Source: an uncultured Acetobacteraceae bacterium
GTDB taxonomy: Bacteria > Pseudomonadota > Alphaproteobacteria > Acetobacterales > Acetobacteraceae
Assembly (NCBI GenBank): GCA_946476985.1
Contig: CAMKWS010000012.1
Location: forward strand, 1 to 35,867
Direction of reading: 5' to 3'
Length of the DNA: 35,867 nt
The notes below the pieces were generated by a model, which saw only the letters and a list, made by a program, of their open reading frames with translations, was not told where the DNA came from and ran no database searches. Both the position numbers and the translations under genes were made by a program. Below, in pieces: positions 15,051 through 35,211 of the stretch (positions are counted from its first letter, which is position 1; each line of letters opens with the position of its first letter).

Positions 15051-15800
15051 ATGCTGCCTATTTCCTCTCACATTCCCCGTGTTGCACTGGTAACAGGCGG
15101 TGCGCGTCGTCTAGGGCGTGCTATGGTGGAGATGCTGGCCTCTGAGGGGTTTAAAGTAGCGATTCACTATCGCCGCAGTGCAGATGAGGCGCATGAGCTT
15201 TTAGAGAAAATTGGCGGCAAGGGCTGCATTGTCCATGCGGATCTCGCAGAAGAGGCCGCTTTATTGCCTTTGTTAGCAGAGGTGCAAGAGCAGCTTGGCC
15301 CTATTGGCGTGCTTATTAATAATGCTTCTGTGTTCCAGCGGGATGAGCTTGGCTCAGTCACACGGCAAAGCTGGGATGAGCATATGGAGCCGAATTTAAG
15401 GGCGCCTTTTGTTTTGTCCCAAGCGATGGCGGAAGCCTTACCTCAGCAGGCGCAAGGGGTGATTCTTAACATGCTCGACCAACGTGTATGGAATCTAACC
15501 CCACATTTTGTCAGCTATACCGTGTCTCGTTCGGCCTTATGGAGTCTGACACAAAGCATGGCACTGGGGCTTGCGCCGCGTATTCGGGTTAATGCCATAG
15601 GGCCTGGGCCTGTTTTGCCGGCTTCAGGTCAGTCGGATGAGCATTTTGAAGCGATGTGCCGTAAGACGCCGCTGCAATCAGGCGCGTCTCCTGAGGAAAT
15701 TGCTGCAATTGCCCGTTTTTTTCTTATGGCACCGTCTGTTACGGGGCAGATGATCGCCCCTGATGGTGGGCAGCATTTAAATTGGTCCCCTGCCCCATAA
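15051..15800 (+). CDS. SDR family oxidoreductase, pteridine-reductase (FolM/PTR1)-like, with Arg in place of catalytic Lys
   Basis: This is a Rossmann-fold NADP(H)-dependent reductase of 249 aa. The nucleotide motif is TGGARRLGRA (15-24), with the arginine typical of pteridine reductases instead of the usual TGxxxGxG. NNAS is at 90-93. The DQRVWNLTP segment (143-151) has Asp143 where classic SDRs have the catalytic Ser, again as in PTR1/FolM. The active-site Tyr156 is present, but the YxxxK motif reads Tyr-Thr-Val-Ser-Arg, with Arg160. A PGP motif follows (NAIGPGPVLP). Reduction of dihydrofolate or dihydrobiopterin is the best guess. It begins two bases after the recR stop, so it is translationally linked to the dnaX block. 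Confidence 0.85.
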   Translation: MLPISSHIPRVALVTGGARRLGRAMVEMLASEGFKVAIHYRRSADEAHELLEKIGGKGCIVHADLAEEAALLPLLAEVQEQLGPIGVLINNASVFQRDELGSVTRQSWDEHMEPNLRAPFVLSQAMAEALPQQAQGVILNMLDQRVWNLTPHFVSYTVSRSALWSLTQSMALGLAPRIRVNAIGPGPVLPASGQSDEHFEAMCRKTPLQSGASPEEIAAIARFFLMAPSVTGQMIAPDGGQHLNWSPAP

Positions 15801-15893
15801 GGGGAGAGGTCTGCGCTGGGCAGTAGCCTTTGGCGATCTGCATAGATGTGCAGCTTGAGAGCGGAGATGTGTTTATCTCTAGCCAGCTCATGA

Positions 15894-15910
15894 ATGTTAT
15901 ATTATAACAT
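15894..15910. promoter_or_regulatory. Putative Zur operator upstream of the TonB receptor gene
   Basis: The perfect 17-bp palindrome ATGTTATATTATAACAT has two 8-bp arms around a central T. It coincides with the core of the Zur box described for proteobacteria (half-site GAAATGTTATA mirrored about one base), and the upstream flank GA also agrees. It ends 31 bases before the ATG and abuts an AT-rich block (15911-15933) that probably contains the -10 element, so bound repressor would block transcription. Confidence 0.78.
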
Positions 15911-15941
15911 AAATTATATTTTAATATTTCTGTGAGGGGCT

Positions 15942-18713
15942 ATGCCGCTTATCCGACAGGGCCGCACTGCTCTACTAGGCATTGGGCTGTTTTTAATATG
16001 GGCTGTACCATCGGCATTGTGTGCAGAAGAGACTGCTCCGCCTGTAGAGCAAATAACGGTGACAGGCTCGCTGCTCAAAGGAGGACGGAAGACCTCGCCT
16101 AATTCTGTGCAGGTCATTACGAGAAAAGAGATTCAACAAAGCGCTGTAACATCTTTGGGTGATTATTTGCAGCAACTCCCTTCTATTGGGTCGTCTGGTT
16201 CCCCTAACAGTATGACGAATGGCGGGAAGGGGGCGTCTTGTACGGATTTGCGCAATCTCGGCCAAGGGCGTGTCCTTGTGTTGATTGATGGCCGCCGTGC
16301 GCCCCTAAATGCGGGGTCTGAATGTGTGGATCTTAATACAGTACCGCGTGAGCAGATTGAGAAAATAGACATTTTAAAAGATGGTGGTTCTGGCCTTTAT
16401 GGGGCAGATGCCATGGCGGGTGTGATTAATATTCATCTTCGGCATAATCTTACAGGCAGCCATATAACGTTGCGTGGGGCGATTACGCAGGTAGGCGATG
16501 GGCGTGGTGGTGAGATATCGGCATATCATGGGTTTAATTTTGACCATGAGCGTGGGAATCTCACAATCTTTGGCAGTTATGGCACAACGGGGCCTATTTA
16601 TAACCGCGATCGCTCATGGGCGGCTTTGCCTCAAAATGATAACCCCGCTACAGGGAGTCCGAGCTATGGGTCGTCCATCATTCCTTCAGGGGTGCTGATA
16701 AACCCGCAGACAGGCCAAAAGATGGTGCCGGATGGTGCTGGGGGCTTTCGGTCTTTCATGGCGTCTGACCGGTATAATTTTGCTCAATATTCAACCATTA
16801 TGAATCGCCATGATAATGCTGCGTTTTCGGTAGATGCGCATGAGCGTTTTTCTAAATTTATCAGCCTATATGGGGTGGTGCGCTATAGCCACACACTGGT
16901 AGGGCGCACGCAATCACCTGCACCTATTCAAGGGAGTGTGCCGCCATCCTCTCTTTTGTCATCATGGGTGCTACCGGCCGCCAACCCGTATAACCCTTGG
17001 GGAGAGGATGCTGCGCTGCTCAAGCGTGCGGAGGATATTGGCCCGCGTCGGAACAACATCACTACCGATACATGGACCTTCCTGCCCAGTATAAAGGGAG
17101 AGCTGGGTGCTGGATGGGATTATGAAGCTTCTTTTACTTATGGAAAGAGTCATCTCTCGTCTCGTACAGAGAATATGGTGAATTATCGCCATTTGTTAGA
17201 GACAACAGGTACGCGCCAACTTGATGGGGAAAATACGCAGAGTGCGGTGATATATGACCCCACGATATGCTTGGCGGAGAGCGGCTGTGTGCTGCAAAGC
17301 CCTTTTGCACCATATAGCGAGCAGGCGAAGAATTATGTGCGTTTTACGCAGCACGACCAAGCAAATTACCAGTTGCGGGATACATTGCTGCGCTTTCGCA
17401 ACGCACATTTATGGGCCTTACCGTGGCGCCATGCGGGGGCGTTAGGGCTTGTTGTGGGGATGGAACATCGAGGCGAGCAGCTGAGTTATTATCCTGATAC
17501 TGTTGTCGTACGGGGAGAATCTACAGGGGCGGCGGGAGCATATACGGGAGGGGGCTTCCATGTCACAGAAGGCTATGGCGAGTTGCAGCTTCCTCTCTTG
17601 CGGCATGCACCTTTTACGCAAGATTTAACAGTGAATCTCCAAGGACGGGTTTCGGCATATAATCGGTTCGGTACGACTCTGAATTGGAAAGCGGGCCTAC
17701 ATTGGGCCCCTATAAAAGATATCGCCTTCCGCGCGACATTAGGAACATCATATAGACAGCCGGGGTTATATGACCTCTATGGGGGGCGCACATTAAGCTA
17801 TGCTTCAGCGTCTGACCCTTGTGCGTATGTATCCTCTTATGGCGTGCAGGCGACAGCCGTTGCGGCGCGTTGCCGAGGAGAGGGGATTGATCCTGCCCAT
17901 TTTGCGTCATCCCTTGTAGGGCAATTGCCGACATTGACAGGCGGTAATACGGCTCTCAAGCCTGAGCAGGGGCGCACGGTGACATTGGGGGTGGATCTTA
18001 CGCCGCGCTTTTTAAAAGCTGTGCAGGTCTCAGTGGATTATTGGCATTATAGCCTCAGTAATATGATTACGACCTTGAGCACGCAGACATTGTTAGATGG
18101 ATGCTATACAGGCAGTGAGACGAGCTTTTGTTCGGCCATATTGCCGCGCTCTAATAGCGGTCAAATTACAGCGATTGAGGCGCTCCCACAGAATATTGGG
18201 GCCTTAAAGACGGATGGTTTAGATGTCACGGCGCATTATACAACAGAGCTGACAGCAAAAGACCGTCTTATTTTTTATGGCAATATGCAATATCTTTTGA
18301 ACTATCAGCAGCGTTTTAGCCAATATAGTGGGTGGCAAAATTATGCAGGTCGGCTGCTATATTTGGCAGGAACAGGGCGCCCCCGCCAGCAAACATCACT
18401 GAGTGCAACATGGCGGCACGGGGCTGTTAGTGTGATGTGGATGTCCCGTTTTGTAAGTGGGATGCGCCTTAATGATGGTTTGCATGATCTCTCCCCTGCG
18501 ACATCTGGTCGTACCCGTGTGGGCGGGACAGTGCTGCATGATGTCACTGTGAGCGGGCATGTGCGCGGCCTACAAGTGATGGGCGGGGTGAGCAACTTAT
18601 TTAATCGTCGCCCGCCCTTTGTGCCGGATGGGGCGTTTAATACGGCGTTTTCTCAATATGCCGGCTATATTCAAGGGCGCAGTTTTTTCGTGCAAATGGG
18701 GATGGATTTTTAA
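15942..18713 (+). CDS. TonB-dependent outer-membrane receptor, probably zinc-regulated
   Basis: This 923-aa outer-membrane importer has a signal peptide ending near SALCA (residue 28). A TonB-box-like segment EQITVTGS (36-43) precedes the plug domain (about 50-170, with VLVLIDGRRAP and GLYGADAMAGVINI), and a 22-strand barrel ends in the terminal Phe of VQMGMDF. Cysteine pairs appear in the plug (CTDLRNLG and ECVDL) and in predicted loops. There is no His-rich loop of the ZnuD type. The Zur-like operator immediately upstream suggests import of zinc or a zinc-metallophore complex; the substrate cannot be read from sequence. It is a single-gene unit, and its stop overlaps the stop of the convergent gene. 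GAGGGG lies four bases before the ATG. Confidence 0.93.
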   Translation: MPLIRQGRTALLGIGLFLIWAVPSALCAEETAPPVEQITVTGSLLKGGRKTSPNSVQVITRKEIQQSAVTSLGDYLQQLPSIGSSGSPNSMTNGGKGASCTDLRNLGQGRVLVLIDGRRAPLNAGSECVDLNTVPREQIEKIDILKDGGSGLYGADAMAGVINIHLRHNLTGSHITLRGAITQVGDGRGGEISAYHGFNFDHERGNLTIFGSYGTTGPIYNRDRSWAALPQNDNPATGSPSYGSSIIPSGVLINPQTGQKMVPDGAGGFRSFMASDRYNFAQYSTIMNRHDNAAFSVDAHERFSKFISLYGVVRYSHTLVGRTQSPAPIQGSVPPSSLLSSWVLPAANPYNPWGEDAALLKRAEDIGPRRNNITTDTWTFLPSIKGELGAGWDYEASFTYGKSHLSSRTENMVNYRHLLETTGTRQLDGENTQSAVIYDPTICLAESGCVLQSPFAPYSEQAKNYVRFTQHDQANYQLRDTLLRFRNAHLWALPWRHAGALGLVVGMEHRGEQLSYYPDTVVVRGESTGAAGAYTGGGFHVTEGYGELQLPLLRHAPFTQDLTVNLQGRVSAYNRFGTTLNWKAGLHWAPIKDIAFRATLGTSYRQPGLYDLYGGRTLSYASASDPCAYVSSYGVQATAVAARCRGEGIDPAHFASSLVGQLPTLTGGNTALKPEQGRTVTLGVDLTPRFLKAVQVSVDYWHYSLSNMITTLSTQTLLDGCYTGSETSFCSAILPRSNSGQITAIEALPQNIGALKTDGLDVTAHYTTELTAKDRLIFYGNMQYLLNYQQRFSQYSGWQNYAGRLLYLAGTGRPRQQTSLSATWRHGAVSVMWMSRFVSGMRLNDGLHDLSPATSGRTRVGGTVLHDVTVSGHVRGLQVMGGVSNLFNRRPPFVPDGAFNTAFSQYAGYIQGRSFFVQMGMDF

Positions 18714-19390
18714 GGAGAGAACGGTTTTGTTTTCGGTAGCAAAGCCGCCCTTGTGTAGCGTTCTATTAAGAAAGAAAAAGGTTGCTTAGTATCGCGGCGA
18801 TATAAAACAGCACGATTTTCTAGCACGATCCCAAAGGGAAGATTATGAAAGCGGCTCTGTAAGCGGTGGCGCTGAAAAAAGCTTTCCCCCAAAGCGCGTC
18901 CGAAAGGAATATGCCCTCTTGCTAAGCGTTGTCGTGCTGTGGGGAGGAGAAGAGCAGGGATATAAATGTTCCAAGCCTCTGATAACAGGATATTGCGGCA
19001 GAAGAGCTGCACATGGCGTGTTGTAATAGCCGTATGCGCCTTTAGCGAGAGTAGTTGACGTGCATCATGTACGAGTTGTGGTGGGCTTACAGTATCAATT
19101 AATTTTGCTGTGATCGGGGCTGAGCAGGTTTCTTGTAAAGCAGCAGTGGCGCTGTCTCGTGCTTCTAATCGTGCGGCAAGTGCAGCTGTAGCTGCGGGAA
19201 CTGTAAGAGTGTGGGAGAAAGGCGAGGGCTCTGCCGCAATAGCAGGGGGCTGAATGTGAGGAGGTGCTAATGTCAGGGCGGTGAGCCCTAATGTTGTTTT
19301 AAAATGAGAGCGATGTTGGCATAAAAAAAACCGTACCCCTTGTGAGGCACGGTTTTTAAAAGAGGGGGAGCCACTTGTGGTTTTAGCCAT
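18710..19390 (-). CDS. Exported protein with a chorismate-lyase-like domain
   Basis: This 226-aa protein is not firmly identified. The region 120-215 resembles the chorismate lyase-like (UbiC-like) family found in alphaproteobacteria: RHVQLFC (125-131), LLSEAWNIYIP (135-145), IPFGRAL (161-167), VLENRAVL (189-196) and PFSFLIERYT (204-213). Residues about 33-53 are hydrophobic and end in AIAA, so export or membrane anchoring is likely, which is odd for a ubiquinone-pathway enzyme. I chose ATG 19390 because AGGGAGAG precedes it; a GTG at 19411 would lie before that site. A factor-independent terminator lies inside codons 12-23, and no in-frame ATG, GTG or TTG occurs after it. It is convergent with the TonB receptor gene and the two stops interlock. 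Confidence 0.62.
   Translation of the reverse strand: MAKTTSGSPSFKNRASQGVRFFLCQHRSHFKTTLGLTALTLAPPHIQPPAIAAEPSPFSHTLTVPAATAALAARLEARDSATAALQETCSAPITAKLIDTVSPPQLVHDARQLLSLKAHTAITTRHVQLFCRNILLSEAWNIYIPALLLPTARQRLARGHIPFGRALGESFFQRHRLQSRFHNLPFGIVLENRAVLYRRDTKQPFSFLIERYTRAALLPKTKPFSP
19323..19357 (-). terminator. Intrinsic terminator on the minus strand, inside the start of the chorismate-lyase-like gene
   Basis: On the minus strand AAAAACCGT (19357-19349) pairs with ACGGTTTTT (19334-19326), with an additional CC/GG pair inside a one-base mismatch and an 8-base loop. The 3' arm runs into eight T. It lies about 90 bp past the stop of the TIGR02300 gene and is probably its terminator, but it also covers codons 12-23 of the next gene. 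Confidence 0.8.
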
Positions 19391-19445
19391 AGTCAGTCTC
19401 TCCCTACACACAAGTCATACGCTTATATAATGCGCTATGTCGTGC

Positions 19446-35194: not shown

Positions 35195-35211
35195 TGCATT
35201 ATTATAATGCA
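35195..35211. promoter_or_regulatory. 17-bp perfect palindrome before the MliC-like gene
   Basis: TGCATTATTATAATGCA has two exact 8-bp arms around a central T. It lies 21 bases before the ATG of the next gene. The TGC...GCA ends and AT-rich centre resemble Fur-superfamily operators in form, but it is not the same sequence as the Zur-like site at 15894. No T-run follows it, so a terminator is unlikely. Confidence 0.5.

Follow-up and report, generated by a model that had tools for sequence, protein, structure and literature searches.

A putative Zur operator, conserved across three genera, in front of a TonB-dependent receptor gene of an uncultured Acetobacteraceae bacterium

TonB-dependent outer-membrane receptors of the ZnuD type, as in Neisseria, are under Zur and carry a His-rich loop. 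TonB receptors subject to Zur occur in a wide range of bacteria, including ZnuD of Pseudomonas aeruginosa as well as pseudopaline-type zincophore receptors (PMC6103462, available part). In the alphaproteobacterium Caulobacter crescentus, the available part of the report describes repression by Zur of znuGHI, an ABC-2 type system, together with three TonB receptors, ZnuK, ZnuL and ZnuM, of which ZnuK and ZnuL are required for growth under zinc starvation; the promoters were bound by Zur in gel shifts, and the site predicted at znuK is GATGTTATATCATAACAAT (PMC4176598). A related 15-bp motif is used by the Zur protein of Paracoccus (PMC5387054, available part).

The stretch of 35,867 nucleotides analyzed here (the window) comes from an uncultured Acetobacteraceae bacterium, probably an acetic acid bacterium. 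It corresponds to contig C12 in an assembly of 27 contigs and 1.88 Mb and shows a G+C content of about 50%. It contains the putative Zur box ATGTTATATTATAACAT in front of a gene encoding a TonB-dependent receptor, TBDR-A (Table 1). As claimed in the initial annotation, this box is a perfect 17-bp palindrome ending 31 bases upstream of the ATG at position 15942. It closely resembles palindromic Zur sites of Caulobacter such as the one at znuK, and both systems also combine an alphaproteobacterial Zur with a zinc ABC importer, znuGHI in Caulobacter versus znuABC here, and with several TonB receptors that Zur controls in Caulobacter and would control here (PMC4176598, available part). An A/T-rich stretch follows the box also in the seven other genomes of the genus carrying TBDR-A, and a simple sigma-70 scan of positions 15750-15990 did not find a promoter. 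The gamma-proteobacterial Zur consensus includes the half-site GAAATGTTATA. The initial annotation called the box near-canonical in this gamma-proteobacterial sense, but outside the 17-bp core agreement is limited to a single base in the left flank, and the exact half-site occurs at the znuA site of the same genome instead of at 15894-15910. No gene besides TBDR-A is likely to be under the box, as the next frame lies on the opposite strand.

Table 1. Features at the TBDR-A locus, in positions of the window.
Feature	Position	Strand	Details
Putative Zur box ATGTTATATTATAACAT	15894-15910	.	perfect 8-1-8 palindrome, 17 bp
A/T-rich leader, box to start codon	15911-15941	+	31 bases; purine run GAGGGG at 15934-15939
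TBDR-A, TonB-dependent receptor	15942-18713	+	923 aa; plug at residues 50-161, barrel match at residues 369-886
Open reading frame	18710-19411	-	233 aa; convergent with TBDR-A; without a match in Pfam or NCBIfam at E 0.001

The Zur-box reading is strengthened by the genomic context, that is, by zur-like and znu genes and by the motif recurring at znuA and at a second TonB receptor gene. Two Fur-family genes are present in the genome. The zur-like one, on whose presence the initial annotation had made its proposal depend, encodes a protein with two CxxC pairs and has the Zur model as its best NCBIfam match (5.7e-32, 110.8 bits, below the curated cut-off of 167). Contig C6 carries a cluster of znuA, znuB and an ATPase gene interpreted as znuC, and the suggested search for the palindrome upstream of znuABC or zur returned a related site here, ATGTTATATAGTAACAA preceded by GAA, 30 bp before the start of znuA and three mismatches away from the palindrome. 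All 28 motif places in the other genomes of the genus were fetched, with overlapping matches merged, and assigned by position and tblastn, resulting in 10 before znuA, 10 before the second receptor gene (TBDR-B), seven before TBDR-A and one elsewhere. Hence, with the own genome included, the motif precedes znuA (at three mismatches in the own genome and at one to two in the 10 others) and TBDR-B in 11/11 genomes and TBDR-A in all eight carriers, there at zero to one mismatches, and the three genomes of the genus without TBDR-A are also without the third box. TBDR-B itself (L005:7689-9935, on the own contig C4) has the exact palindrome in front and is followed by an EamA-type transporter gene (L005:10007-11002) in 11/11 genomes of the genus; in other genera, searching the flanks of 27 TBDR-B loci over up to 1.5 kb did not reveal the latter gene. 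As EamA proteins include metallophore exporters, a link of this gene to a zincophore is possible. In genome G150, the zur match (G150:C5:366744-367209) consists of two overlapping pieces with stops, though the three boxes are present, reflecting either decay or a sequencing error.

For scoring sites beyond the genus, a matrix was derived from the znuA and TBDR-B sites of the genus only (maximum 30.0 bits), leaving the TBDR-A sites unseen. Control values from 3000 stretches were 10.6 bits at the 99% level and 19.6 bits at maximum, while a stricter A/T-rich random control gave 15.2 bits. The eight TBDR-A sites of the genus score between 24.6 and 30.0 bits, and four orthologues from two other genera (61-62% identical) are preceded by boxes of 22.1-24.5 bits. 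An earlier view, based on 150 genomes of the family, that the boxed receptor is restricted to the genus was thus abandoned when 397 genomes gave these orthologues. In the sister clade of nine genes at 51-52% identity, values do not exceed 3.0 bits (0/9 above the 99% control). Among 45 further homologues, including the own paralogue on contig C2, one is marginal at 10.7 bits and none passes the A/T-rich control, and 13 more homologue places remain at or below 8.6 bits, although for L248 and L045 the upstream sequence was confined to 49 and 110 bases, respectively. When scanning from the frame start, the 99% control is exceeded by 2/61 homologues without a box (L031 at 13.6 and L029 at 10.7 bits) and 15.2 bits by 0/61; for 14 distant homologues from other parts of the class, the highest score is 8.8 bits. 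Two genomes, G604 and G705, each hold a boxed orthologue plus an unboxed paralogue, the paralogues being among the 13 places and scoring 0.9 bits each. The family search in the 397 genomes scored two candidates per genome, so that more paralogues may exist, and a search among contigs of named relatives gave only remote Tamlana receptors.

The same matrix was applied to the other presumptive targets. In 18 genomes of other genera, picked for holding TBDR-A homologues, znuA is found in 18/18 and a Zur relative in 17/18, with zur as divergent neighbor of znuA in 12 (one of these, G126, has its zur match in two parts). The znuA boxes exceed the 99% control in 16/18 genomes and the A/T-rich control in only 6/18, and are therefore individually weak; for one of the two misses (L133), the match is partial and the contig short. 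For TBDR-B, considering the 27 best-scoring genes of other genera with a fetched locus, 24 boxes lie above the 99% and 19 above the A/T-rich control. With boxes before 24/27 homologues elsewhere, TBDR-B looks like the older Zur-controlled receptor of these bacteria.

In a tree of 67 proteins, computed with a quick method without bootstrap and containing some long branches, the 12 boxed TBDR-A genes fall on one side of a branch with an SH-aLRT value of 100, and the label boxed/unboxed changes once. Conservation of the palindrome before orthologues, the lack of which had been named as speaking against the initial annotation, is found in 12/12 orthologues from three genera. The neighborhoods of these genes differ (names outside the window are read from translations). 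In the window, the neighbors of TBDR-A are a short-chain dehydrogenase gene and recR. In a congener (L076), the gene is flanked by a membrane-protein operon on one side and a lipid-kinase-like gene on the other, in one further genus it comes after a fumarase-like gene and in the other further genus it adjoins a tyrosyl-tRNA-synthetase-like gene. Moreover, none of six flanking genes of the window was found in the loci of seven congeners, which cover about 4 kb upstream of the box and little past the gene end. The boxed genes hence occupy at least four neighborhoods, and the fact that the box stayed with the gene despite these relocations speaks for a function. With 12 boxed genes in one clade and in at least four neighborhoods, Zur control was probably gained once in this clade and then retained.

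From these sequence comparisons, 15894-15910 is probably a Zur operator and TBDR-A a receptor made on zinc starvation that would import zinc, likely as a complex. For its separate parts, putative control of TBDR-A by Zur appears highly probable, while zinc or a zinc complex as cargo, which we infer from the regulation, is likely. By analogy with Caulobacter, zinc-bound Zur should block transcription of TBDR-A and release the site upon starvation. In zinc-replete cells, zinc-loaded Zur would bind the palindrome near the gene start and shut off the gene, whereas under starvation Zur would leave, allowing TBDR-A to be made along with ZnuABC and TBDR-B. The receptor would then bring zinc across the outer membrane with TonB energy and hand it over to ZnuA, the zinc most likely being bound to a ligand that is environmental or foreign. 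This suggests that TBDR-A helps the cell to scavenge scarce zinc.

The receptor protein itself shows the plug (PF07715, 1.4e-20) and beta-barrel (PF00593, 7.2e-30) domains but reaches none of the NCBIfam receptor cut-offs. In line with the initial annotation, it is without the His-rich loop of ZnuD, as no HH pair is present in any of the 12 boxed proteins, the densest 30 residues hold three to five His (at most three in TBDR-A of the window) and no His-rich cluster is seen. It further differs from ZnuD by four conserved cysteine pairs (100/128, 443/449, 627/644, 721/730). The idea that these pairs are a zinc feature, already proposed in the initial annotation, had to be rejected, since all eight cysteines are invariant in the unboxed relatives (41/41, then 55/55 of those on the tree) and thus belong to the whole receptor group; they probably form disulfides. 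Residues specific for the boxed clade were inspected as well. Invariant there and present in at most 10% of the other proteins are 24 residues, including E127, which neighbors C128 in the plug stretch aligned with BtuB, D233, H290 and H587. Potential zinc ligands make up 4/24 of these residues when considering all 12 boxed genes, and H, D and E account for 12/81 clade-specific residues in the genus clade compared with 4/53, 15/94 and 5/50 in three unboxed clades. As these counts are not clearly above composition or the unboxed clades, enrichment was dropped as an argument for zinc, and the four residues are candidates and not evidence. An AlphaFold2 run on the single window protein gave a pLDDT of 30.6 and no usable structure.

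A true Zur operator might also govern a receptor for cargo other than zinc which would help the zinc-starved cell, for example, a cobalamin-like cofactor enabling the replacement of a zinc enzyme. The nearest solved structure by sequence is the plug of BtuB, plus weak barrel pieces, the best NCBIfam match is TIGR01779 (TonB-B12), and most homologues found are unboxed and presumably serve other cargo. However, the B12 model matches residues 24-177 only, at 89.8 bits far under its cut-off of 599.7, and the same box marks znuA and TBDR-B, so that we consider this explanation rather unlikely. As unboxed homologues are common, the original cargo of the receptor group was probably not zinc. One might tentatively envisage, below even odds, a single switch to Zur control in a clade of large four-cysteine-pair receptors with relatives for other cargo. 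This clade would thereby have turned into a new importer class for zinc complexed by a foreign ligand, the source of which might be plants, insects or other microbes, and H290, H587, E127 and D233 would be candidates for the residues determining specificity.

Alternatively, the palindrome might be the operator of another Fur-family regulator and TBDR-A a receptor for iron or manganese uptake. The genome encodes a second Fur-family protein, iron is the substrate of most TonB receptors for which the cargo is known, and a heme-receptor model matches TBDR-A weakly. Against this, the motif occurs at znuA throughout the 11 genomes of the genus (in the own genome with the three mismatches mentioned) and, above the 99% control, before znuA in 16/18 genomes of other genera, including 12 with a divergent zur, and it closely resembles the Caulobacter Zur sites (PMC4176598, available part), which together render another regulator very improbable. 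Control by Zur also has points against it, namely, the own znuA site at three mismatches, which chance matches at other places of the genome attain as well, the Zur protein below the curated cut-off and the boxes kept in G150 despite the split zur match.

Symmetry alone is not significant, as about 0.55 perfect 8-1-8 palindromes are expected in the window with equal bases and a second one is indeed present. The latter, TGCATTATTATAATGCA at 35195-35211, overlaps the start codon of a frame running off the contig end. Allowing up to three mismatches, the window gives three matches versus 0.07 expected, two of the three being the 15894 site on both strands. Genome-wide, exact matches are confined to two loci, 15894-15910 and C4:87657, whereas with mismatches the real pattern and the reversed control hardly differ (11 versus 11 at up to three and 3 versus 2 at up to two), so that weak matches within a single genome carry no weight. 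With symmetry and weak matches indecisive, the case rests on identity, position and conservation. At up to two mismatches, each of the 11 genomes of the genus, among them the own one, contains the pattern, with a forward sum of 37 (overlapping matches counted) versus a control sum of 3. A chance A/T-rich palindrome, for which the second one in the window might speak, can practically be dismissed, as the same 17-mer with at most one mismatch precedes all eight genus orthologues and strong boxes precede 4/4 orthologues in two other genera versus 0/9 sister genes.

Compared with BtuB, TBDR-A shares the plug domain, its best match among solved structures, and differs in matching only this part plus weak barrel pieces, far under the TonB-B12 cut-off. 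As in pseudopaline-type systems, a TonB receptor would be under Zur (PMC6103462, available part). Genes for zincophore synthesis or transport were not recognized beside TBDR-A in the flanks read. Whether TBDR-A represents a new receptor type, as initially put forward, can be answered in part: this is plausible as no ZnuD-named chain is among the matches listed in PDB sequence searches, but Zur control of TonB receptors as such is not new, with three cases in Caulobacter alone (PMC4176598, available part). What seems new is the receptor clade and its recruitment into the Zur regulon, ZnuK, ZnuL and ZnuM being compared by description only. Among the titles listed from open-licence literature on Zur and TonB receptors with acetic acid bacteria, Acetobacter/Gluconobacter or Acetobacteraceae, none is on such a Zur-controlled receptor. 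This bacterium with its small genome may have a three-target zinc regulon consisting of znuA, TBDR-B and TBDR-A.

To our knowledge, cargo other than iron or B12 has been assigned to few TonB receptors. The boxed clade, with 12 genes found, and its close sister clade, with nine unboxed genes found, seem to be set apart by a single regulatory gain, and the two genomes with boxed and unboxed copies side by side offer a compact natural comparison for a change in receptor cargo. The own genome holds an unboxed paralogue of TBDR-A as well, at 47% identity (match C2:80041-82653, L183, G000:C2:71000-90000; scored at locus L100), the cargo of which would make a useful contrast.
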